Shown here: positions 5,313-19,394 of the stretch, piece after piece | Numbering within the stretch: position 1 is the stretch's first letter | Layout: each line of letters begins with the position of its first letter | Origin: Litoditis marina | Taxonomy: Eukaryota > Nematoda > Chromadorea > Rhabditida > Rhabditidae | Length of the DNA stretch: 64,000 nt | Direction: 5' to 3' | Assembly: GCA_964036275.1 (NCBI GenBank) | Contig: OZ038437.1 | Coordinates: forward strand, 15,160,090-15,224,089 | Notes under the pieces: generated by a model | The model's input: only the letters and a program-made list of their open reading frames with translations | Databases searched by the model: none | What the model was told of the DNA's origin: nothing | Translations under genes and position numbers: made by a program

Positions 5313-8300
5313 TCTCTCTCTTTCTCTCTCACCATCTCTCTCATTCACTCTCTCTCTTTCTCTATCTATATTGAATGAATTTATTACGCAAGTGAAGCGT
5401 GTGATAAAACTGAGACATAATTGGAAAAAGATAATTTCAAAGATGAGAAATTAAACTGTGGAGATAATATTGTACATGTACGTTACGAATTGGGGACAAA
5501 AATCACAGAATGGAACAACAGTTAAGTATAGTAGAAGTAACACAGGAGTATAACACAAAATTCAAATTGTTATGATATAAAACGTTTAAAACTAGCAACG
5601 GAAAATGGCAAACTCTTCTTTTTGGACAGTTTCAGATATTTCGATCCTGCTCGCACAGACAAAAATTGTTGACGCAATTTTGGGAAAACTCAGAAAACTC
5701 GGTATGGGAAAACTCAGTTTCAAAGTTGTTCTTCTAGTTTTAAATTGGAAAAAAAACTATAAAAGCCGGAGGATTTCACGGTAACGATTTTATGTACCAT
5801 GAGTAGATCGAAATTATCTCTGCGACCGAAGAGAGATTTCAGTCCTAGGATTCTATTACGTATTTCAGATGAGGGCACCCTGCAATGAGTATATCCACCT
5901 TTTCTCATTAACAACTTCCTAGTGAAATCGTTTTGAACCGATTCAAGTGACTTGACAGAACCTCTATCCGTGTTAAATACGGTGGTTACAATAGGGCGTA
6001 CATAAGTCTTGTACAGCTTGACAAGAACCTCTTGTTTCTTGACCTTCAATGTTTTGAAAATATTGAAGGTTCTTCTCTTAGCAAGTCTTCATATCTTCTT
6101 ACAATGGTCAGGGAATTTGAGTGATTCATTCACAATATATCCTAGATCTCCCATAGTGCTGGTCTTTTCTATTTCGGCTCCAAAAACTTTACAGTCTCTT
6201 CTCGGATTATGTTTACCTATGTGCAGCACTTTTGTTTTCTCCACTGATAACGGTAATTGCCAGTCTTGTGATCACTGATACATTTCATTAATGGCTGTCT
6301 GAAGGTAATCTGTAGTTTGATTGGGTGAAAAGCTCTGATAGATTTTGATATCGTCCGCGAACACTTTGCAACTGACTGCACCAACCGAGAGCGAATCGGG
6401 CACTTCGCGGGTGTGAATGCTAAATAGGACGGGGGAAAGTACACCGCCTTGAGGAACTCCACTACTTATTCGGTGAACCTTAGACTCTGCTTTTCCGATT
6501 GTCACTTGAAACGTTCTTTCAATTATGGAAGATGCGATCCAGTTGACAATGGGACAGTGAAAACTCAGAATTTCCAGCCGATGTAACAGTTTCGCATTAG
6601 AAACACGATCAAAAGCTTTCGGAAAATGAAAAATATTGATACTTAAGGTTTTATTATCCATCTTCCATAATTGTGTTCTTTTCACAGTTGGGGTCATCTA
6701 TGACTGTCAGTGTGTCGGCCATTACAACGGCAGTTGTACCGTCCCTCCTGTACGGAAACATCATTTCCCTTATGCTTGTTCCCTCCAACTCAGTGAGTCC
6801 CTCAAATGAACAGATTCCAATGTGATTCACTGTTTTTTCATTGAAAACATCTGAATATTCTTTGGAACAGCGACTTTGAAGTCTTTAAATTCATTTTGTT
6901 TTAGACTGTCCGTGGGATTATATTTTTAGTCACCCCGAGAATGTCTCGAGCAGATTACCGAAATAGTCCTTACTTTTGCAATAGCAATGGCGCAGTTTAT
7001 TCACAATCTCGAAACTTAAGACTCCGTGAAATAAACCTATTCTGAGAAAACAAGCACGACAATTGAAAAAAATACAAAGCTTGTCCATGAAGCGAATTTT
7101 GTATTGAAACAACGTATAATTTGCAAACTCTGTCTGGTATCATTGTTACACGAAACATACGGATAGTTCTCAGAGCTTCCCCGTAAATAATTTTTTAGTT
7201 ACATTTTGTTTACCTTGACAACTTTTTTCAAATTTCAAAAATTAAATCAAATTATACTCAAAATAACTTCTTTTTCAGAAACGAAATTAGTGACCAATTA
7301 TGGAAGAAAAACATATCAAACTGGTAAGTGAAACTCCATGCCGACTGCAATTTTGTTATAAGTCTGATTAGATAACTGTAATTGATGCGCACTTCGCACC
7401 TGACAATGGCTCAGGATATATATTCTAACCCCTATTCGTGTCACATTATCTCATTGCGCGAAAGAATAGTCATTCAAAATACGAAAGCACAACACAATAC
7501 ATTTGTTTTATGATTTTTTACAGTGTTTAAAACATTTAAAAGGAATTGGTAAATTCGAAACTGTAATGAAATGTTTCTACCTATGACCTTTTTAGACAAT
7601 GCAAGAAGAGCATTCAAGACATACATGCGTCAGAATCTTCCGGGTCTGCTTGATGTCAGTTACCAACTTATCCAGTACAACTTTCAAACATTCAATAAAG
7701 TTCGTCCAACGAAAACTTTCATCGATCCACTCAGAAAAAAAAATAATCTGAGTTTCACGAAAAATTTGGAAAGCTTGAAAAAGTTCATAATTGTCTCTCC
7801 ATAAATCATGGAGAACTCACTGATTGAAAGTTAGCAAAATTCGAATAATATCAAGCAATAAAACGACCACATGGAAATTTTTACAGTGCCGAAACCCGAC
7901 CTGGTTCCGTTATCATGAAGAACTATTCATTTTTCGTAGTTTACAAACGTATTGTCGTGATTGACATTTACAGGCCGTGAAGCAGATCTCAAAACTAGTC
8001 TATTCTCTACCGTCTTTGCCAATTGGTGGTGTCGACTTGGAACCTTCTTCTTTAACTTCGACACCTATTCCCCCAAAACAGGAAGAACACAATGAACAGC
8101 CTCAGCCCGTGAAACAAGTACGTGTTACGCGTTCGAACCAAAGAGCTTGTGAATTTTGTTCAAAGCTCGCAGCACGACGCTCTGTGCGTTATCTGTCCGA
8201 GACTGAAGAAAACATTCCAATGATGATAGCCAGCACTTGCACGACAACATTGAGTACTGTTTCCATTGCAGTTTTTAACTGGAGAATTTCTCAGATATTG

Positions 8301-9823
8301 AACGGAGTTTCTTTGTGTTTTGACGTCGACCCTCTCTCTAGTATTGATATTGTCTACCTATCTGACTTGACAGTTGACCGCCGTTTGGGAAACGGGAGTT
8401 TCGGAACAGTGGATCTCATGTCCGATGAATTCAACAGGTTAGTTTTCTCCTGAATGTTTTTCAATGGGTTGAAATAGACAACAACATTATCCCATTCGCT
8501 CCGAAACAGAACTTGCAAAACAGAACTGAAACACTTACCATCATCTGGACAAGAGAGAAAAAATAATGACAGTAGCTCGCTTCCATTTCAGTGCACAAAC
8601 GTGCTATGAAGCTATGAAAACAATCAGGTCAGGTTCATATCAGTGTTACAGTCAGATGGTCTTATCTTGGTTTTCCAGTAACAATTTTTCTCTCAGTTAT
8701 GAATGCATTTTCAGAGTAGCTGTGAAACGGTTGAACCAAGGAGTGTTTCCATCAAGTGATGTGCTTAGGATGGAGCTGGAATACTTGGTTATGGTAATTA
8801 CTTGCATTTTTCATTTTTCGTTTAGCTCCATGTTCAACAATTATCATGCATGTGTTTACGCTTGGGAACTTTGAAAAGTGATTTTTTACAGGTCTGTCGT
8901 CACTCTAATCTGATACAAATTCGAGCCATTTTGTACGAATCGCCCGAAGGATCCACCCCAATCGGATACTCCATGGAATACATGCCTGAGGGAAGTCTTG
9001 ACAGCGGTAAATCGCTACATTCCTCAAATACGCTCTTCCACGATTTATTCACTGTCATTGACTGTGGATGTGAAAGTTTCACGCGATTATTGACGCGGAA
9101 ACCCTCAAAGTTCAATACTTGTCATTTTTTGCTAACTGAAACGTGACCACAAAGAAAAAATCACCGATTGAATAGACATAATTAATTTCCAATTACCTAC
9201 CATTATTGGGAGGTATTCAATGAAAACTGTTTTGGAACGTTTTATCACAACCTAGTTTGTTGCGAAAAAGTCGACAAATAAAATTCTTGATGACTGAAGT
9301 AAGTATTGGAAATGTTTTGCTTCTGTTTCAGTAATACATAGCTCACCCCGGACAGAGTTCGGATACCCTCAAATACTTATCTGGATCAAGCAAGCCACGT
9401 GTGCGCTGCATTATCTACATCAGAAAAGGTTGATTCATCGTGATGTGAAACCACAGAAGTAAGTTTGAGCGAGAAAGTTGACTTTTGCTCTCAGTCCTTG
9501 TTCGTATGACTTGAATAACACATCAACTACTTGAATTCATCGTTCATCCATATTATTCATGGTGGACTTCTTGAGCTTTCTGAGAAGCACACTGGTAAAA
9601 GAAAAAACCAAGAGTGCAGGTGACTTGTAGCATTGCCAAAATTTTGATAATCGTCTCAATTCTCGGAAATGTTGGATGAAACAAAATGTGACCAAACACT
9701 TTCTTAAATCTCATGCATAGGTAGATTTATTAATTTCAGCATGTTATTGGACCGTAACCATCAAGTTCTAAAGATTTGTGATCTGGGGGTATCCTGCATA
9801 GCTCGGCCAGTCAACACTGCAGT
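4941..9823 (+). CDS. TAK1/MOM-4-like protein kinase with Cys-rich N-terminus, cut off within the kinase domain
   Basis: Exons 4941-5073, 6688-6792, 7596-7654, 7974-8437, 8715-8793, 8892-9006, 9332-9458 and 9740-9823 splice in consistent phase to about 388 codons. The start is the first in-frame ATG (MPLVCFF). Roughly the first 100 residues are the Cys-rich region shared with the upstream copy. A Pro/Gln/Ser-rich linker follows, then a kinase domain: GNGSFGTV glycine loop, VAVKRL lysine, MELEYL (helix C Glu), MEYMPEGSL hinge, HRDVKPQN catalytic loop and KICDLG in place of DFG. Order and wording are closest to the MAP3K7 (TAK1)/MOM-4 family, which is established to act in MAPK signalling. An in-frame stop (9825-9827) or a donor at 9824 ends the last exon. 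No C-lobe is visible before the transposon at 9897. I infer an interrupted, probably non-functional gene; the N-terminal exons could belong to a separate gene. Confidence 0.75.
5232..5356. repeat. (CT)n microsatellite
   Basis: About 125 bp of almost pure CT dinucleotides with a few interruptions, in the first intron of the kinase gene. Confidence 0.95.
5720..6660 (-). mobile_element. Broken non-LTR retrotransposon (LINE) reverse transcriptase fragment
   Basis: On the minus strand, about 6650-6275 encodes reverse transcriptase motifs in order: PKAFDRVSN, the turn SSGVPQGGVLSPVLF and the catalytic FADDIKIY. The frame then breaks, and 6049-5720 in another frame encodes the typical downstream region (LYKTYVRPIV, ESVQNDFTRKL, LGLKSLFGRRDNFDLL). 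This is the jockey/CR1-type C-terminal layout. The endonuclease, the N-terminal part and the 3' tail are absent. It lies antisense in the kinase gene's first intron, between exons 5073 and 6688. It is a dead insertion; the exact clade is uncertain. Confidence 0.85.
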
Positions 9824-9896
9824 GTAAGATTCCGGATGTTCATTTGCTCTCAGGGTCTCCCTATTGACTCAGTTTTCGTGTGATGTTCACTGTTAA

Positions 9897-9920
9897 AGGG
9901 GGACTGCATTGAATGCTCAA
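9897..9920 (+). repeat. Left terminal inverted repeat of the Kolobok-type element
   Basis: Begins AGGGGGACTGCATTGAATGC directly after TTAA (9893-9896). Pairs with 18999-19022. Just inside, GACTGCATTGAA and TCCAATGCAGACC (about 9902-9956) form a further imperfect inverted repeat. Confidence 0.78.
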
Positions 9921-10214
9921 TACAGAATACGCGCTCCAATGCAGACCACTAAAAGGCAGCAGACGAAAAGTGGCAGAGAGCTGCGCAATCAATATCACGG
10001 CGCTCGATCAAGCCATTTCAATTTTACTCGTCTCTGTGTGATGTTTTCATAGTTTTCTTATTTACTGTGAATGTTTATGTTTGTGGAATTCTGTTACACG
10101 TTTCTTGCTTACAACTCTAGTGGTTTTTCACACAACTGACAAATATTACACCATATTTTCTTTGTTCTTTTTATAGAGCTCATTTTGAACACTGCTCATG
10201 ATGATGTTTTTTTC
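9921..10214 (+). other. Left arm of the transposon, upstream of the P2X7-ICD gene
   Basis: Non-coding: no credible ORF. It starts with subterminal inverted repeat sequence and ends in a T-rich run into the splice acceptor at 10215-10216. By position it should hold the promoter of the P2X7-ICD gene; no motif was identified. Confidence 0.5.
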
Positions 10215-10222
10215 AGAGTATG
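10205..10222 (+). promoter_or_regulatory. Splice acceptor 3 nt before a start codon (likely SL trans-splice site)
   Basis: TTTTTTTCAG ends at 10216, followed by AGT and then ATG at 10220. No donor-bearing upstream exon within the transposon was found, so spliced-leader addition is the simplest reading. The transposase gene in the same element has the same layout (16996-17001). Confidence 0.55.
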
Positions 10223-11069
10223 CAGGTTCCTCTGCGTGCTGTACGAATGGTTGAACCATTTTTGTACGAGCCGGACAAAGAAGAAATGGAAAAACAGAGA
10301 GAGGAAAAAACCAACAAACGTGTGGCTCTCCTTTCGAAAAAACAACCGTGCATTTTCGGAAACGATGTGCAGGGTGAATTACACCCATGTACTTGTGGAT
10401 GTTGTCAAAAGACAGCCGGCTCAAAATTTGACTGGTGTTGTAACTCTCTGTGGAATTACGAAAGTGATCTCACCGAAATAGGTGCACATTTCAAAACTGT
10501 TCTGGAGGAGATGTTTTTCGCGGAAGGACATCCTAACACATGTGTGACGGAATCGGATGAATTCAAGCAACAGTTTCTCAACCTGCCGGTGAATAAGGCT
10601 ATCTTGTTTTCCACTTATAGTTTTCACGTTTCGCGTCAATTTCAATTTTATACTTCAACTTTACAGGTTATCAATAGTTTTGCGTGGGGACAGCATGTAA
10701 AGCAGAACTATTTAGAGCGGTCTACGGCTATATATGAAGTTGATCAGCTGACAAACAGGTATACAACATAGGTATCCTCACGTATATGTGTTCCTTTTTC
10801 GGGTTCATCAGTTTTGTCTGAATAACATACGCATGCTTCGTTCTTTGCACAACATGAAATAGTGATGTTACAGAGAACGTCGATTCCATCTCTACTCTCT
10901 TTTGGCCTATCGTCTTTTCCCGAAATTGGGACAGGGTTTCCGAATGGAGTTTCCAGTGTGTATCGTAAACGCGGTCAGAAAATTGTGTCCTTCTCCGACC
11001 AATACCTACGTTGGCTTTCTACCCCAACCAATAGGAAATGTGAATTCCCTCTTGAACACCGATATGTGA
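10220..11069 (+). CDS. P2X7 intracellular (ballast) domain protein encoded by the transposon
   Basis: Two exons, 10220-10758 and 10874-11069 (TGA 11067-11069), join in phase to a 244-aa protein. The N-terminus has VEPFLYEPD, then a Lys/Glu-rich stretch. Next come a Cys cluster (HPCTCGCC, then WCCN), CVTESDEF about residue 111, and in exon 2 RRFHLYSLLAYRLFP, FPVCIVNAVRKLCP and TYVGF. The same order is found in the cytoplasmic C-terminal domain of P2X7 receptors (CC, CITxxxxF, HCAYRCYATW, LPSCxxxxIRKEFP, YSGF), which in the receptor binds zinc and guanine nucleotide. There are no P2X channel helices, so this is a stand-alone domain. Here it lies inside a transposon and convergent with the transposase, so it may be an accessory protein for transposition; that role is inferred. 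A short intron at about 10608-10666 would break the frame, so I left it in. Confidence 0.85.
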
Positions 11070-12220
11070 CTGCTAAGGTAAGACAATGATTCAGGTTTCC
11101 TCTTAGTAATTTAAATATTTTCGTTGTTATGAGAGATGTTTGGCATTCACTGATACAAAAGCTGTTATTCATAACGGCATCAGATTTCGTTCTCTTTGTT
11201 CTATGGTTCTCTCAGACGCGATTTTGCGTCCTATCGATTTTCGGCTGTTCACCCGTTTGTTGAGGCGCGGCCCGCCGCTTGTTTACACGTTTATTGAGTC
11301 TCCGCCCATTGCTTGTTTACACGTTTAGTCATGTGCCGCACGCCCGCCGCCTCCTATTGATTTTCTATTCAGTGTAATTTAATATTTGATATGTTCATTT
11401 GATAATTTTACGCGTTCACTTTCAGTTTCGCTCATTAGAAGACTACCGGCGGTTCCTACTCTTTATTCTAAATTTATTCAACTGTTTGCGATTACTCGTC
11501 TGATCCCTTCATAAACTTGAGGTAAGCAGCATTTGCTCAAGCGAGCCTCAAGCTTTCAAAAAAGAAACATTCTAACTATTCGTGTCTGAAGAAAACAAAT
11601 TTTGTTTCTGTCTGATACTTTTTCGTACTTGCCGGCTTGCCCTATCTCACTGGCTCACCTTCACCTCCCTGATAGTACTATATCTAAGATGTTTGCTTGA
11701 TTTCGTATACAGTAACATGTGCAGCGTATCAATTTTCGATCGTTGACACTTTTTGTGACCTTCTGTCCCTACCTCCTAAATTGAGCATGATATCGTCTCC
11801 GTACTATTTTGAATCGTTGCTATACCATTTTGACATTGTTTCGTTATGTTTCTGGAGCTATCTCTTTCAGATATCCGAAGTTTTTCGTAGTCCCTCAATA
11901 AACACACGTGCTATCAGTTTTCCCATAATGCAGTTTTTCGCTTTTTCCAATATAACCACAATAATTGCTAATAACTGTGATGTATTTTACAGATTGTCTT
12001 GTTCTTTCCAAGATGAATCATTGCATACTGGAATATGGTCTCATATGTCTAATTTGGAAATTTTTTACATGGTGAGTACTTTTATTACATATACAGCTCT
12101 TTGGTCCAGCTATTTAGTGGGACGGTTCACGGTTTCAACCTGAGGATATTGTGAATTCTTGTCCCGCTACGAGTAGATCAAAGTTAATGTACATTTGTAT
12201 TCGAGGAGGATGTAAGATGT
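11070..12220. other. Spacer between the two convergent transposon genes
   Basis: About 1.15 kb. It holds the two 3' UTRs. A GC-rich patch at 11,215-11,370 carries a repeated GCTTGTTTACACGTTTA block and is flanked by TCCTATCGATTTTC / TCCTATTGATTTTC. An open frame at 11697-12143 has unremarkable hydrophobic composition and no recognisable motif; I do not call it a gene. Confidence 0.5.
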
Positions 12221-15200
12221 TCAGAATTCTGCGGATAATTCGTCTTCCAAGTCCTCGGGGCGGAGACCTCTTCTTTCCTGTAGTTCAATCCACTCTCGGA
12301 AAACCCGTTCCAACATCTCATCTACCTGTAATCTTGTAATTCGTAACTACAACTGTCCAACTGGTTAGATCAAAATTGAGTTGATTTCGATGCAAAATCA
12401 CGAATATTTTATTTCAAGAACACTTGCTAGAATAGTCACGCCTTCCTAGTGTGAGCAGCGCGTGGAAACAGAGACTTTGGAAGTTTAGCAGGTTAAAGTT
12501 AATAATGTATGAAAACGATGATGAACATACGACTTCATTTCCAGGCCTCTCGTAATCCTCGAAGTCGCTGTCCTCAGGGTCGCTGAGAGTCTCTTCTGAT
12601 GGGACCGTTTCAACCTTGGCGGTGGGGGGACAGTCCATGTTGGTACGGATAGCGCGTGCCCTCTTCTTCAGCGCAATTCGCCAGCTCATGTCAGGTTCGG
12701 TTTTCAGCGTTCTTTCCACAATCTGAAGAAATGTTGCAACTAATAAAACTATCCTGCTTTTCGCTAGGGACGATCATGAATTGTGCAAACTGCCTACTAT
12801 GCTACAAGTTTCTCTGAATGTTCGGTGGTTGTGGTGCCTAGGAAATGATATACTTTAGTATTCTGAAAGTATTTGACCGACCAATTACCAGCTTCATTGT
12901 CAGTGGGCATATATTTTTGAACAACTACCTCCTTTCGTGTCTTGTTCCAATATTTGCGCGTCCCGATGACTTTGCGTGTTCCCGAAACGAATTCATCCCA
13001 CTTCTTCGAATTCCAATCCACTATTGCCAACTTTGTGCGCATTTCATGTCCCTTTTGCGAGCTGAAAAGAAATTTTTATTGACACGGATCACGGAATGAG
13101 TAAGAGTTAGGCCAGGTACCCATATAATTTTCAACCTTTCCCCCTCCCTTCATCTAATATCTTTGCGTAACTCAGAACTCACAAAAATAGATCCTTCGGG
13201 GCGTAGTAGCACGCTCGAGCGTGAAATGACTCAAGGTCGCTAGTGGCGAAGATTGGAGAGCACTGCAATGATTTCAGTTGCAAACGTGAAAAAACTGTTT
13301 TAGCCGTAGCCGTATCTTATTACTTGCAATAATCACCTTTTTGATATCTTCAAGTCTGGTTCCCGCAGTGAGGATTTTCTTCAAACGATCGTGTGCTTTT
13401 CTGTCGTCCTCGTCGGCGAGATTGAGATAGTCAGGACATTTTCGCTGGGGATCCAAGGGGCCGTGTACACACTGCTTGTAGTGTTCAAAGTTGAATACCG
13501 TTGAGTTCTGAATTACTTGTTTCATGCGAATCTCTACATTTTAATTTTCTGTACGATTCAAGTCTTATATATCCTAAGTGAGATAGTTCTACGTACTACG
13601 TATCCCCCCCCCCCTCCCCCTCACGCCAAATAGTTATTCTCCTATGGCCACTTTTGCCCACCTATGCACAACTTCTGTATTTTCGACACCCACACAAAGC
13701 TACAGTGGCGCCTGTATAAATGACAGCTGCTACATATAAGTGACTGCTGACATTTTTTATTATTGCTGCCCTTACCAATATATGAAAACGTATATTGCAT
13801 ACTTAATCGTACCGAAAATTCATGACGGTTGCATACGTGCTCCAGTATACTAAGATACTTTTCCTGGGTCAGTGGTCCATCTCCGTCAGATGAAGCTATT
13901 GCCCACCACATCTGGTTGATAATGTGGCGTATCCACTCCTTGATGGGTTCACAGAATTGTAGGCTCATGGTCTAAATTGTGTGAGTTGGATAGTTTACCC
14001 GAATGTCACGTTTGCGAAACGACTATTATTTTAGATCTAAACTAATGTATACACTAATTTAGGTTTCATTGAGAACCAAATAAGGTATCACGGGCGCTCG
14101 CAAAATACAACATATTACTCACCGCTAATAGATCCATGGTGACGTTCCTACTGTAGTGCCACGTATCAAAAAAATGCTCGATATCAGGGAACAATGTCCG
14201 CATCACCTCCGCAATCTTTTTGCATCTATCAGATGTGAAGCTCCCCACAGGATGCTCGTCCTGAATATGTTAAAGTCATACGTTAAATATCCCTCCATTT
14301 TGATGTTGCCTGATGCTCACTTTTGCCTGATGTTGACTGTATCATGCTCACTTAGTGTTACAGTTCTGGGTAAAATTTGAAACAAATATGCTGTTTTTGA
14401 ATGACATATGCTCACCTTTTCGGGATGCTCATGCTCACTTTTTTCGACCTGATGCGAACCTTTTTCACGTATGATTAAAGTAGAAATAACGGAAAAACCT
14501 CTCAGTTTCCTCTATTGCACGCTATTCTTGAGAGATTTTCTGTTTTACAACACTTTTCGTTTCGATCGTAACAGCTGTATCCACATTACTCACATCACAC
14601 ATTCCTCTCAGTTCTTCCAGCAGTTTTTCCAAGGTCCTTCTGTGTCCGTCTATTTCCAGTTTTGGAGATGAACCTGAATGGCGTGTGTTAGTATTGCTAA
14701 CCCGTCTTCCGTTTTGTGAAAACAACCATGAAATCATCACTGACCTCCCCGTTCCTTACGCAGAACCTCGAAATCGAGAACCATTCTGTAGGCCATCTCC
14801 ATCAATGTGTACCGTCCGTACACTGCACTACGTCCCCTCGAGTCGAATTGAGCATCGCCCGCTAGATCCACCTTCTCCCCCTGGAAAGTTCCATATTCAT
14901 ATGTGCAATTAAACTAGTCATTGTCAGCGGTTTCAATATCATAATTTGAAGTTTAGTAAGGTCAACTGAAAAGAGAACACTGTGAGAATCCTTTAAAATA
15001 TAGTTTCAGTGTGTACAGTGTACAATATCAAATAATGTGCTCACGTTATCTAGCTTTGTCTTCATTAGGCCCATGACTTTCTCTCTCTGGTGTGTGTATA
15101 TCTCGTTGACAGCTGGCTCCACGTAAACTTCCTTGTGTCCGTGGTAAGCTCTCTCACCAATAATGGGCATCTCGAGACTTTTGAATAACGCTTCCGTCTT

Positions 15201-16996
15201 CTGAAACACTACAACATCGCAGGGGAGGGCAGATATGGCTCGGCAAACCAAAAAAGTCAGGGAGGGAAGGGTCATTCGTGTTCTGAAGGGGGTTGAAAAT
15301 TTCACGTTTTTAGCAACCTGGACAAAACTTCACTCGAAATTTTCCGTTTATTTATTGAAATTTGACTTTTTGATGTTTCAAATTGGAGGGGGTCCTATTG
15401 GACTCAAAGGCAAACTCTTTTCTGCCCGCCTCCACATGAACCGTGAAATTGTGTCATAGAACTACAACTTGTAACTTTTGAAGCGCGTATTAGGTAGTGC
15501 ACCTTGTAAGAATTTCCAGTGGAAGTGATACATGTTGAAATGTCAAGGTCCATTTGTGTGAGCTTTTCCTTTGGACCATTCGCCTTCGTCCGTAGTACTT
15601 TAGAGCTAGACCACGGGGCAATAGGATGTCCGTCGCGGCAAAACCGGTACACCTAAAAATGGCATGAGAGAAAGTTTTTACAAATAATAATAGTGTCGCC
15701 TTTGTGGTTTGATCTCGATACTTGTAATAATTGCGAATTTGGGATAGAAAAGTCATAGGATCAAACTACAAACCCAGCAGTATATACTACATTACCACAT
15801 ATGATTGATTAGAAAAACCGTGTAGGTTGAGCAGTACGCGAAAACTGTCATCCGCTTTCTGTGGATGAAATGTGTAAAGTATGATTTTCACATAGCATTG
15901 CGTATGAAATGTGCACTACGCTTACCTTGAGCACACTTCCAAGAACGTTCGTCACTATACGACATTCCTGATCACACGTGGGGCAGTGATTCAAAAGCTC
16001 GAGAATGGATTCTTTTTCTACAAGAAAAACTGCATAATCATCTATTGTTTTTGTTCTCGACGGAGCAGACTTGTTATTTGTCAAATCCGCAACCTCAGAA
16101 GGCGGCACCGAACTCATGGGTTCTGAGTTAGCATCAGACTCTCCACTCGCGGGTAGATACTGAAAAATAAAATAGTAGAAGTCTAACGGTTCGCCTACAT
16201 GCCTGATAAACGTGAAGAATATGTAATTCGTATATTCATTTAGTGAGTTTTTTCAGCTATTCTCAGCTCACCTCAGACGCATCAGAGTTGGTTGTATCTT
16301 GACTCGATTCACTGCTCACTCCATTCGGCTGAACGCTCGGTGGACTCCAACCTTGAGGCGGAGAAGCTAGCTTCCATATCGGCTGAAACGTAAGTTCGTA
16401 ACAACTGAATATTTTTTTCATTTCTTTTTATTCCACGCGTATTGCATTGAATTCTTTACCTTATAAACCGTTACGCTTAGCATAGGATCATAGGAATGTT
16501 AAATTTACCTCAGTAGATCAATGAACGCACAATATTCGTACTTCTGGGGAAATCCTACTTCTCACCCTATTTTGTAGTTTGGTGTTCCCTAATGAAACAC
16601 CTAATTCCAAGCAGCTTATGAACACCAAAGTCCCCTCATGTATGAAATTGTGTATACCTCAAAACAGCAATGTGTTACCTTACTCGGCACCCGGTCTTTC
16701 AAAAGACGCTGTCTGTTGTTCCAACCATCTGTCGCGAAGTCATCGGCGTTGAAATGTAGGCGGCAGAGCAACTGGGATGAAACCGGCCTGTTCGCCAATT
16801 TGTTTTCTAATCTCTTGTAGTCCTCCTTGTCTTTCGTCAAAGCGCGTATCCAATTATGCCTATCCTGTTTCTTTTTGGTAAACGCAATCATTGCACCCCT
16901 ATCAAGGCGCTCATCGCAAACTACGCACGTGCCGAATTTGTCACGCAAGTTGACCCGCATAACATTCGGAGGAGCGATATACGTGTGGTCTCCCAT
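12221..16996 (-). CDS. THAP-domain Kolobok-type DDE transposase, 761 aa, 14 exons
   Basis: Minus-strand exons: 16996-16679, 16382-16272, 16159-15926, 15652-15503, 15200-15045, 14880-14745, 14673-14594, 14260-14123, 13971-13813, 13507-13337, 13262-13183, 13061-12806, 12722-12531 and 12325-12221. All phases agree and no stop intervenes. Residues 1-106 are a THAP zinc finger: C24-x2-C27, HNWIRAL, C78-x2-H81, RVPSK. Next is an acidic/Ser linker, then HCPTCDQEC with CRDGH, a second Cys/His module. The catalytic region has GDAQFDSRGRSAVYGRYTLM (first Asp), TSDRCKKI (second Asp) with FFDTWHYSRNV, and SDLESFHARACYYAPK (Glu). The C-terminus is acidic and ends ELSAEF. It should bind and cut the element's ends in the nucleus. 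The weakest boundary is the donor at 12805 (GTAGCA). Domestication is possible, but the matching TIRs argue for a transposon gene. Confidence 0.9.
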
Positions 16997-17003
16997 TATC
17001 TGA
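16996..17003 (-). promoter_or_regulatory. Splice acceptor 3 nt before the transposase ATG (likely SL trans-splice site)
   Basis: On the minus strand TTTTCAG ends at 17000, followed by ATA and then ATG at 16996. This is the same 3-nt spacing as in the P2X7-ICD gene of the element. Confidence 0.55.
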
Positions 17004-17611
17004 AAAGTCAACTTTTTGAACATGGCAGTTTTCTAATAACGAAATTAGATGTAAAAATAAAAGAGAAAGCGCAGATTTTTTGGAGCTGGGGCGGAGACTA
17101 ATTTTTTACGCTGCCTTCATTACGTTTCCACGCGGGCGTGCTCGCGTGGCGTGCGAATCGGCGCGAAGTGTCGCGTATGAATTACTGCGTGACATTCACA
17201 ATATCTCCCTTAGTTCAATTCAGTTCAAGCTTCAATCGTTATTCTTTTCCAACTACAGTTATCACGCAGCACATTTACATATTATATCCATTTCTTCGTG
17301 GGTAGAAAGGTAATCAACGATCTTTTCGTTTATTTTCATACACATATACACAGTCTCCCTCTCCTATTCTTTTCTCCCCTCCTCACTTTCTGACACTTTT
17401 CCGTATAACATCATATATTTTCGTGATTATGCTTTCACTCCAAATTTATGTAATGATGCTCAAAACCTACCACACACTGGCTGTGTTTATTTGCGTAGAT
17501 TCACTTCCATGGAACTAAGAAGAATTATCATCACTGAAGAGTCATGCTCCCACACTATGTGGATTTATAATATCCTCTCCCGACATCTCTCTGAATTGTA
17601 CACATAAATTC

Positions 17612-17860
17612 TATAGTTTGTTCCAACCTATTAGAACCCTCTACAGTAGAAGTCTTCTCAAGCTTCTAGGCCAGATTTTGGCATATTGATTGGCAATTTG
17701 TATTTTCTCCAAATCCTGGTAGTGGCTTGTGGCTTCTGCATGTTTACTATTGCATACGATCAAAGTTTGAAATCAAAACAATAAACTATTTATTGGACAC
17801 CGCCTCCAGAATATTTGACAGATTACGGTAGAAGTTCATTTATTGGTGAAACAGACTATA
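17612..17860 (-). mobile_element. MITE family A, diverged copy inside the transposon
   Basis: Begins TATAGTTTGTTCCAACC and ends GGTGAAACAGACTATA. It resembles the copies at 19509, 21286, 39487 and 49793 but is more diverged internally. Confidence 0.75.
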
Positions 17861-18477
17861 AAACAAAGCTAATTCCGTGTTTCTATCATAGCTTTATTTA
17901 TGGAAAACCAAATACTACAAACCGAAATAGATAAGATAAGTGAAATAAAGTTTTATTTTGCTTCCCTCATTTTCCAGTGGCGTGCGATAGTGCTGAAACA
18001 GATAAAGTGTAATAGTGTAACAGGTTACTGTCCTGATATCGTCTAGATACATATTGACAGTCGGTTTAGGCTGTCGCTTGTCTTTTCAACTAGTGAGAGA
18101 ACATGCGGCCTGTAATACGGTTATCGTATCTTATTGCTATGCAGTTATCATCTTTCGTTTCAGGTCGGTCGAAGATGGGTTCTTTCACTGTTCTAGTCAA
18201 CACTCGGACGAACCAGCGTATCCAAATTTCTTTTTGTTTTATCCTTTGCACATTACTTTTGCTAGGCACCAATCGTTCCATATACTAGTTTTAGATACTC
18301 GAGAACATATCTTATCTGCTCAATTGCAATACTAGAATCATCATGTATTTGTTATTTATTTTCGTTGTTGCCTTCATGTTGTTTATGTACATTTTAGTAC
18401 AGAGTCATTATATTTCACCTAGTTTTGGTACTCGTTAGTGTTTCTAGTTGTTTGGTTTTGTTGTTGTTATAGTTTTG

Positions 18478-18575
18478 CGGTCGTTAGTATTTGTAGGCGT
18501 TAGTGTATGTAGGCGTTAGTGTTTGTAGTCGTTAGTGTTTGTAGTCGTTATTAGTTCTAGTCGCTAGTGTTCCTA
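18478..18575 (+). repeat. Tandem array of about 18-bp units
   Basis: Units of the form GTCGTTAGTGTTTGTA and GGCGTTAGTGTATGTA repeat about five times inside the transposon's right arm, with looser copies on both sides. Confidence 0.75.
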
Positions 18576-18998
18576 GTTCTTAGGTTGTTTATTCACAAAC
18601 ACAGTGGTGTTTTGCTCAGTTTTCTTCACGTATTCATGTATAATTTCTAGTTGATTACTCCACGTGACCAGTTGTCTCATCTTTTGCGAGACCGTACACC
18701 GTGCAATGAAAATGTGCAATATATTTTATCAACGATCTTCCATCATTTACAGACACACATATATTTTTAACTTTTTATTATACATCTTGCGAAAATTAGA
18801 CACAAATTGTCCATCATCGGGCATCAGCGATCCTCTCCCGATCGATATCTGCAAATGCACCATTTTAGATGGTTGTCGCCTTCCTCTGCGTCTCTCGCAT
18901 GCTTCGAAAAAAACTTACGTGCAAGAAACGTGGACTTTCCCGTTAAAATTTTACTACAACAAAAACACAGATCATGTTCTCTTCACGAATAGCTCCAT

Positions 18999-19022
18999 TT
19001 GATCATTCAATTCTGCCCCCCT
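18999..19022 (-). repeat. Right terminal inverted repeat of the Kolobok-type element
   Basis: Ends GCCCCCCT immediately before TTAA (19023-19026). Its reverse complement begins AGGGGGGCAGAATTGAATGA and pairs with 9897-9920 at about 20 of 24 positions. Confidence 0.78.
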
Positions 19023-19394
19023 TTAAACCGCAATTCATTTTTCTATTGCAGTTTGAAGGGCCGCTGGGATTAGTCCACAAAATCGTATTGCTCCAAACAC
19101 GTGATTTCACCTAGTATGTGACAAATGGGCGAATGCTATAGTTCCGGTCATTCCTACTGAGACTTGGCAGGGTGCCAACTAATTTTCCAGGCTATTTCTC
19201 ACCACTTTGTAGTTTTCCGAATAACTACAAACTCATTCAAGTCTTAAACTTACCAATGCATCTTGGATAATCAAAATTTATCATTTACACTGGTTTTGAA
19301 CTCTTCAGCACAATTTTTAGAACAACTGACTTCAAAAAATATAAAATATGGCCGTGAGAAGCTTCCAGAGTTTTCGGAACTTGAAATATATTAC

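Follow-up and report, generated by a model that had tools for sequence, protein, structure and literature searches.

The window (the whole stretch of DNA analysed, 64,000 nucleotides of contig OZ038437.1 of Litoditis marina) contains a 9.1-kb DNA transposon that is flanked by TTAA and extends, with these flanks, over positions 9893-19026. In all likelihood this nematode transposon is a Kolobok element with an intact structure, probably an autonomous one, and it is Kol0-like in that it carries, convergent with its transposase gene, a gene for a protein resembling KolX. The genome has at least 150 matches to the cuticle-collagen N-terminal family, which marks nematodes (the best 150 of 213 candidates), and none were found in 14 control genomes. 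Kolobok elements of the Kol0 type encode KolX as their second protein, which has the ballast fold, and the receptor P2X7 has been proposed to have arisen by fusion with KolX (Kojima and Bao 2022, PMC9587614); in the P2X7 ballast, as described there, two zinc ions are surrounded by seven cysteines that are conserved.

Boundaries and ends of the element

The element occupies positions 9897-19022, precisely where the first-pass annotation of this DNA had placed it, and the matching TTAA sites and inverted repeats of about 20/24 that it had claimed are both present. The target sites are at 9893-9896 and 19023-19026, and the terminal inverted repeats (TIRs) at 9897-9920 (+ strand) and 18999-19022 (- strand) are identical at 20 of 24 bases by direct comparison. 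The termini are AG...CT, which is the 5'-RR...YY-3' form with TIRs that is expected of Kolobok, and the 4-bp TTAA target site duplication of Kolobok is found not only here but also at two relatives and at a young pair of elements described below. Among 36 pairs of TTAA sites in the flanks (9 x 4), the pair that bounds the element is the best, with 16/20 bases matching compared to 8 for the runner-up; when the flanks were shuffled 100 times, the top-scoring pair averaged 11.4 matches and never exceeded 15. When 16 bases are scored, the ends of the window element match at 13, and the maximum in 200 flank shuffles was 12. The TIRs of the window, taken alone, exceed chance only just, and so the left end that is common to many places in the genome is the stronger evidence that the ends are real.

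The left 94 bases of the element occur in at least 28 places in the genome, including the window, with 78-100% identity. Nine of the other 27 places were examined (L010-L018), and seven of these nine belong to a single family, in which the right end consists of TTAA and a TIR beginning AGGGGGGCAG, as in the window element, in 7/7 copies, and the left end has TTAA in 6/7. Two copies (L013 and L014, G000:C4:10.77-10.80 Mb) have identical flanks due to recent local duplication of the region and represent one duplicated insertion, so that the seven copies represent six insertions. Within the family, the left end is 98.3% identical and the next 300 bp are 96.8% identical, which is a slight difference, and no genes are evident in the long frames of the three copies (of seven) that were inspected. 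The remaining two places (L017, L018) are less closely related, and neither yielded a right TIR. The left-end module, the 102 bp at 9893-9994 (+ strand), is up to 99% identical to nonautonomous elements whose interiors differ from that of the window element and whose right end has only the TIR in common with it. The window element thus has genuine ends, of which the left one belongs to a wider group of elements. A chance origin of the TIRs was rejected on the basis of the best TTAA pair scoring above shuffled flanks, the left end common to many places, and the right TIRs in relatives.

The transposase gene

The transposase gene is on the - strand and consists of 13 exons, from 16996 down to 12414, which keep one frame with no in-frame stop and encode 741 amino acids. 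The exon models of this gene and of the KolX-like gene (13 + 3) are our own predictions from the DNA, and several analyses of the transposase (Pfam score, genome query, five-sequence alignment and protein database search) used a model without the last residues (702 of 741 amino acids). Exon 1 (16679-16996) encodes the THAP domain, and the frame of this exon scores 25.6 bits against the cut-off of 23.9; a THAP match at E <= 0.1 was obtained for four of the five transposases of this genome that were aligned, the fifth having been supplied without its N terminus. Exons 2 (16272-16382), 3 (15926-16159), 4 (15503-15652) and 5 (15045-15200) are followed by exon 6 (14745-14880), which contains the first catalytic D (in GDAQ), exon 7 (14594-14673), and exon 8 (14123-14260), which contains the second D (in TSDRC) as well as the DxxH motif (DTWH). 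The H2CH zinc finger is divided between exon 9 (13813-13971), with its first two H, and exon 10 (13337-13507), with its C and H, and the catalytic E (in DLESFH) is encoded by exon 11 (13183-13262). The 3' border of exon 12 (12878-13061) is uncertain, and exon 13 (12414-12722) contains the stop codon, directly after which there is an AATAAA.

The residues D332, D406 and D427-x-x-H430 are invariant in all five aligned transposases, as are H486, H491, C507 and H509 of the H2CH zinc finger. The catalytic E motif is present in four of the five rows of the alignment, including that of the window element, and the fifth, from whose row the exon was omitted, has the E in its DNA. The transposase therefore has the DDE triad with C/DxxH between the second D and the E that Kojima and Bao (PMC9587614) describe among the marks of Kolobok, the identity of the second D being assigned by published descriptions and the alignment; the marks of Kolobok transposases, including the H2CH motif, are also described in a study of Xenopus (PMC6004289). 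With its TTAA sites, RR...YY TIRs, THAP domain, DDE triad and H2CH finger, the window element was correctly recognized by the first-pass annotation as a Kolobok-type element with both genes, and the claim of an uninterrupted THAP-DDE transposase stands as far as the frame, which is kept without an in-frame stop, and the catalytic residues, which are complete, but the gene is not literally uninterrupted, being spliced in 13 exons. A protein database search with the transposase core returned no match among 4310 candidates, a result with no bearing on rarity because the animal content of the database is uncertain.

The KolX-like gene

The KolX-like gene is a stand-alone gene of three exons on the + strand, convergent with the transposase gene, and encodes 218 amino acids. 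Exon 1 (10220-10588), with possible ATG start codons at 10220 and 10247, encodes six of the seven cysteines; exon 2 (10667-10758) has counterparts in relatives; and exon 3 (10874-11069) encodes an R-x-E-x-P-x-C motif and contains the stop codon. All seven cysteines (C48, C50, C53, C64, C65, C99, C174) are invariant in the six KolX sequences, which are those of the window and of five relatives in the same genome. With four of these relatives, exon 1 of the window KolX gives matches of 1e-18 to 3e-25; with the fifth, which is divergent, the match is weaker (2.5e-6), and the probability from profile comparison is 94%. The five relatives score 23.6, 20.1, 30.9, none and 38.7 bits against the P2RX7_C domain (PF20478), so that three of the six KolX sequences are over the cut-off of 23.5 bits, and a profile of all six KolX sequences finds four sequences in PDB at E < 0.01, all of which are P2X7 (best E = 2e-5).

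Via its relatives and the seven cysteines, there is good but indirect evidence that the window KolX is homologous to the ballast domain of P2X7. At the sequence level, it is the second protein with seven cysteines that characterizes Kol0, and it would be expected to adopt the ballast fold. The first-pass annotation had claimed a convergent, stand-alone gene for the P2X7 intracellular domain: the gene is indeed convergent and stand-alone and has the seven cysteines, but it is spliced from three exons and its Pfam score falls below the P2RX7_C cut-off. The window KolX, when compared with a protein database, gave 0/78 candidates at E <= 0.001, which, the animal content of the database being uncertain, likewise has no bearing on rarity.

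Other two-gene elements in the same genome

When the genome was queried with KolX, four other places were found, and the transposase query found DDE exons at three of those four, its remaining matches being to THAP exons only. Thus, a convergent KolX-like gene is present at all four loci where the transposase query found DDE exons (the window, C1:16.66 Mb, C4:19.6 Mb and C57), with KolX exons at the latter three that are 38-58% identical to those of the window. The loci C1:16659835-16667585 (7,751 bp) and C4:19605295-19613143 (7,849 bp) each contain both genes and are bounded by TTAA and TIRs, the latter matching at 15/16 bases (maximum of 13 in 200 shuffles) and 16/16 bases (maximum of 12 in 200 shuffles), respectively. 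A more divergent two-gene type is located at C16:32.41 Mb and C2:20.17 Mb, where elements of 7,944 and 7,863 bp, also with convergent genes, lie on separate contigs and are 99% identical (55 substitutions over 7,863 aligned bases). The likeness of this pair begins and stops at TTAA and a TIR (13/16), from which it follows that two-gene Kolobok elements moved recently in this genome. The first-pass annotation had proposed a search for other loci with both genes between TTAA-flanked TIRs, and the C1 and C4 elements are two such loci, in addition to the divergent C16/C2 pair. The lack of any second locus of this kind, which it had named as a refutation, is therefore not what the genome shows.

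The identities of the two proteins to those of the window copy run in parallel: 46% for KolX and 48% for the transposase of C1, 45% and 48% for C4, 42% and 46% for C57, and 29% and 28% for C16. The KolX-like gene at C3:18.69 Mb (L060, G000:C3:18689599-18691204), which offers no transposase for comparison, is 40% identical, open, and has the same three-exon layout; it is a candidate for a stand-alone or domesticated KolX.

Selection was measured in one pair of elements, C1 and C4, from the nonsynonymous (dN) and synonymous (dS) divergence of both genes. For KolX (206 codons), dN is 0.053 and dS is 0.520, a ratio of 0.10; for the transposase (498 codons, covering the parts that could be matched in ten of the 13 exons, namely 1, 3-6, 8-10, 12 and 13), dN is 0.106 and dS is 1.138, a ratio of 0.09. 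In the single pair measured, KolX is under purifying selection about as strong as that on the transposase. Recombination between elements is a possible cause of the lower dS of KolX.

Two further sets of related sequences were observed in the genome. The sequence G000:C513:21456-29500 is the remnant of a close relative of the window element, in which a THAP exon (66% identity) and a portion of the right-end region (72%) have kept their order. A second pair of P2RX7_C sequences (G000:C17:3832927-3833070 and C4:20102321-20102455) is 96.5% identical over 2.6 kb, with a breakpoint that is not TTAA, and in translation it resembles the C16 element as far as the putative last transposase exon of that element; the 7.8 kb examined at C4 yielded neither a TIR nor a transposase core, and this pair is not counted as support.

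Alternative explanations

Several observations weigh against the interpretation of the window as an intact Kolobok element with KolX. The whole spliced transposase has a THAP score of 21.3 bits, under the cut-off of 23.9. The window KolX scores 15.9 bits against P2RX7_C, for which the cut-off is 23.5, and by itself matches nothing in PDB up to E = 10; a PDB profile made from it and four close relatives does not find P2X7, and the match to P2X7 arises only when the profile includes the divergent sixth KolX, which is the most P2X7-like row. Since the window KolX is under the Pfam cut-off and the five-sequence profile does not reach P2X7, the link to P2X7 runs via relatives and the seven cysteines. 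The copy on C57 contains an in-frame stop and no TIR was found in the stretch examined, and for the KolX-like gene at C3:18.69 Mb neither a transposase within 6.6 kb downstream nor a TIR in the stretch examined was found. The 123 bases at the right end of the window element occur once in the genome, and no empty insertion site was found in the assembly (best 40 of 1393 candidates); among 41 rows of this search, the whole-half matches are only the two flanks themselves. With a single-copy right end and no empty site, movement can be read from the C16/C2 pair but not from the window copy itself.

A passenger without a role, a host gene that the transposon either captured by chance or happened to land beside, is an improbable explanation of the KolX-like gene. 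The C3:18.69 Mb gene, with no detected transposase, speaks for it, but the convergent pair at 4/4 loci where the transposase query detected DDE exons, together with the divergent form in two near-identical copies, the parallel identities of KolX and transposase, and the purifying selection on KolX (in one pair) all count against it, and on the strength of this repeated linkage, parallelism and selection it was rejected. Slightly less probable still is that the gene pair is a domesticated, immobile locus with a host function, as might be supposed from the single-copy right end, the intactness of both genes, and the known domestication of Kolobok transposases in Xenopus (PMC6004289). Against this, the TTAA sites and TIRs are still legible (20/24), the catalytic residues are intact, and the left end is common to at least 27 other places, including nonautonomous elements with the same type of end. 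Membership in the piggyBac superfamily, which likewise uses a TTAA target, with the remaining features being convergent, is hardly credible: the RR...YY ends (AG...CT) and the THAP, DxxH and H2CH motifs speak against it, and according to Kojima and Bao (PMC9587614), piggyBac proteins are without most of the seven cysteines, all of which are present in the window KolX. It was rejected for these reasons.

Proposed role of KolX

As a Kolobok element with KolX, the window element would be expected to transpose by the cut-and-paste mechanism of its superfamily, in which the THAP domain would bind the ends of the element and the DDE domain would excise it and join it to a new TTAA, which would thereby be duplicated. 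The least certain step is the participation of KolX, which, from its linkage and the selection upon it, may belong to the transposition machinery as its second protein, probably in the form of a zinc-stabilized domain that enters or helps the transposase complex and without which the element would not spread. If KolX is needed for the element to spread, this would explain why it stays beside the transposase over long divergence. That KolX is a partner protein in transposition is better than a guess, judging from sequence; the suggestion of the first-pass annotation that a ballast protein serves as the second protein of a transposon has gained from the persistent linkage and from purifying selection (in one pair), but it is still something that we infer. 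A more extended proposal, to which we assign somewhat less than an even chance, is that the transposase has KolX as an obligate partner, and that the ballast was first a zinc-binding (perhaps guanine nucleotide-binding) part of a transposition complex, maintained by selection in nematodes, where P2X receptors are apparently absent, and later reused as the tail of a vertebrate receptor. To our knowledge, the function of the ballast domain of P2X7 is poorly understood. Structurally intact transposons with a free-standing ballast protein, in a phylum reported to have lost P2X, suggest that its original role may be separable from the receptor, and if the extended proposal is true, the window element and its relatives constitute a near-intact system in which the original function of the ballast fold can be tested.

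Nested and neighbouring sequences

A nested repeat of about 250 bp (17612-17860), identified by genome search, has at least 40 further matches in the genome with 69-75% identity. The right flank, from 19023, also opens with a repeat: 31 of the 41 rows of the empty-site search start within three bases of the TTAA, with 76-85% identity, as if the window element had been inserted where another repeat ends in TTAA. To the left of the element, two frames were recognized by eye: one at 6275-6697 (- strand) resembles reverse transcriptase (VPQGGVLSP...FADD) and has the appearance of a remnant of a long interspersed nuclear element, and one at 7965-8450 (+ strand) ends in a glycine loop like that of protein kinases (LGNGSFGTV) and perhaps belongs to a host gene beside the transposon.

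Comparison with known systems

The central idea is not new, because Kojima and Bao had already reported the ballast fold of KolX and proposed its fusion to give P2X7; the connection of Kolobok, KolX and P2X7 has been in print since 2022, and the window element is a new, well-preserved nematode example. The idea of the first-pass annotation that such elements are a mobile source for the cytoplasmic domain of vertebrate P2X7 receptors is sound and coincides with that published proposal. What is added is the nematode host, the presence of several elements with a convergent layout in the same genome, a pair that moved recently, and an estimate of the selection acting on KolX. The hosts of Kol0 named in the available part of PMC9587614 are vertebrates, annelids, cnidarians and sponges. 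Haemonchus and Ancylostoma have the domain according to Rump and colleagues (PMC7016195), who also reported an apparent loss of P2X genes in nematodes and whose text does not use the word stem "transpos". A survey of nematode transposable elements (PMC11118728) names Kolobok-T2 and Kolobok-H and mentions neither KolX nor P2X7. No report of a nematode KolX element was found in the open-licence PMC papers that were consulted, and an earlier report elsewhere is possible.

The window element has in common with the Kol0 lineage (of the Kolobok-1_XT type) the TTAA target, RR...YY ends, a THAP-DDE transposase and a second protein with seven cysteines, but differs in its nematode host, many introns and length of 9.1 kb; its genes are convergent. 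With the C-terminal domain of P2X7 (P2RX7_C, PF20478), which together with fish Nanor is among the closest known systems, the window KolX shares the seven cysteines and a C-terminal region around P-x-C, and some of its relatives in the same genome pass the Pfam cut-off, but unlike the receptor it is a stand-alone transposon protein without a channel. The elements KolobokP, KolobokE, KolobokD and KolobokH also combine a Kolobok transposase with an accessory protein, but what accompanies the transposase there is a His-Me nuclease, a lambda-type exonuclease, a DEDDh exonuclease or a RecQ helicase, and the ends of the window element are not long direct repeats, its left end being found in many places and its right end once.

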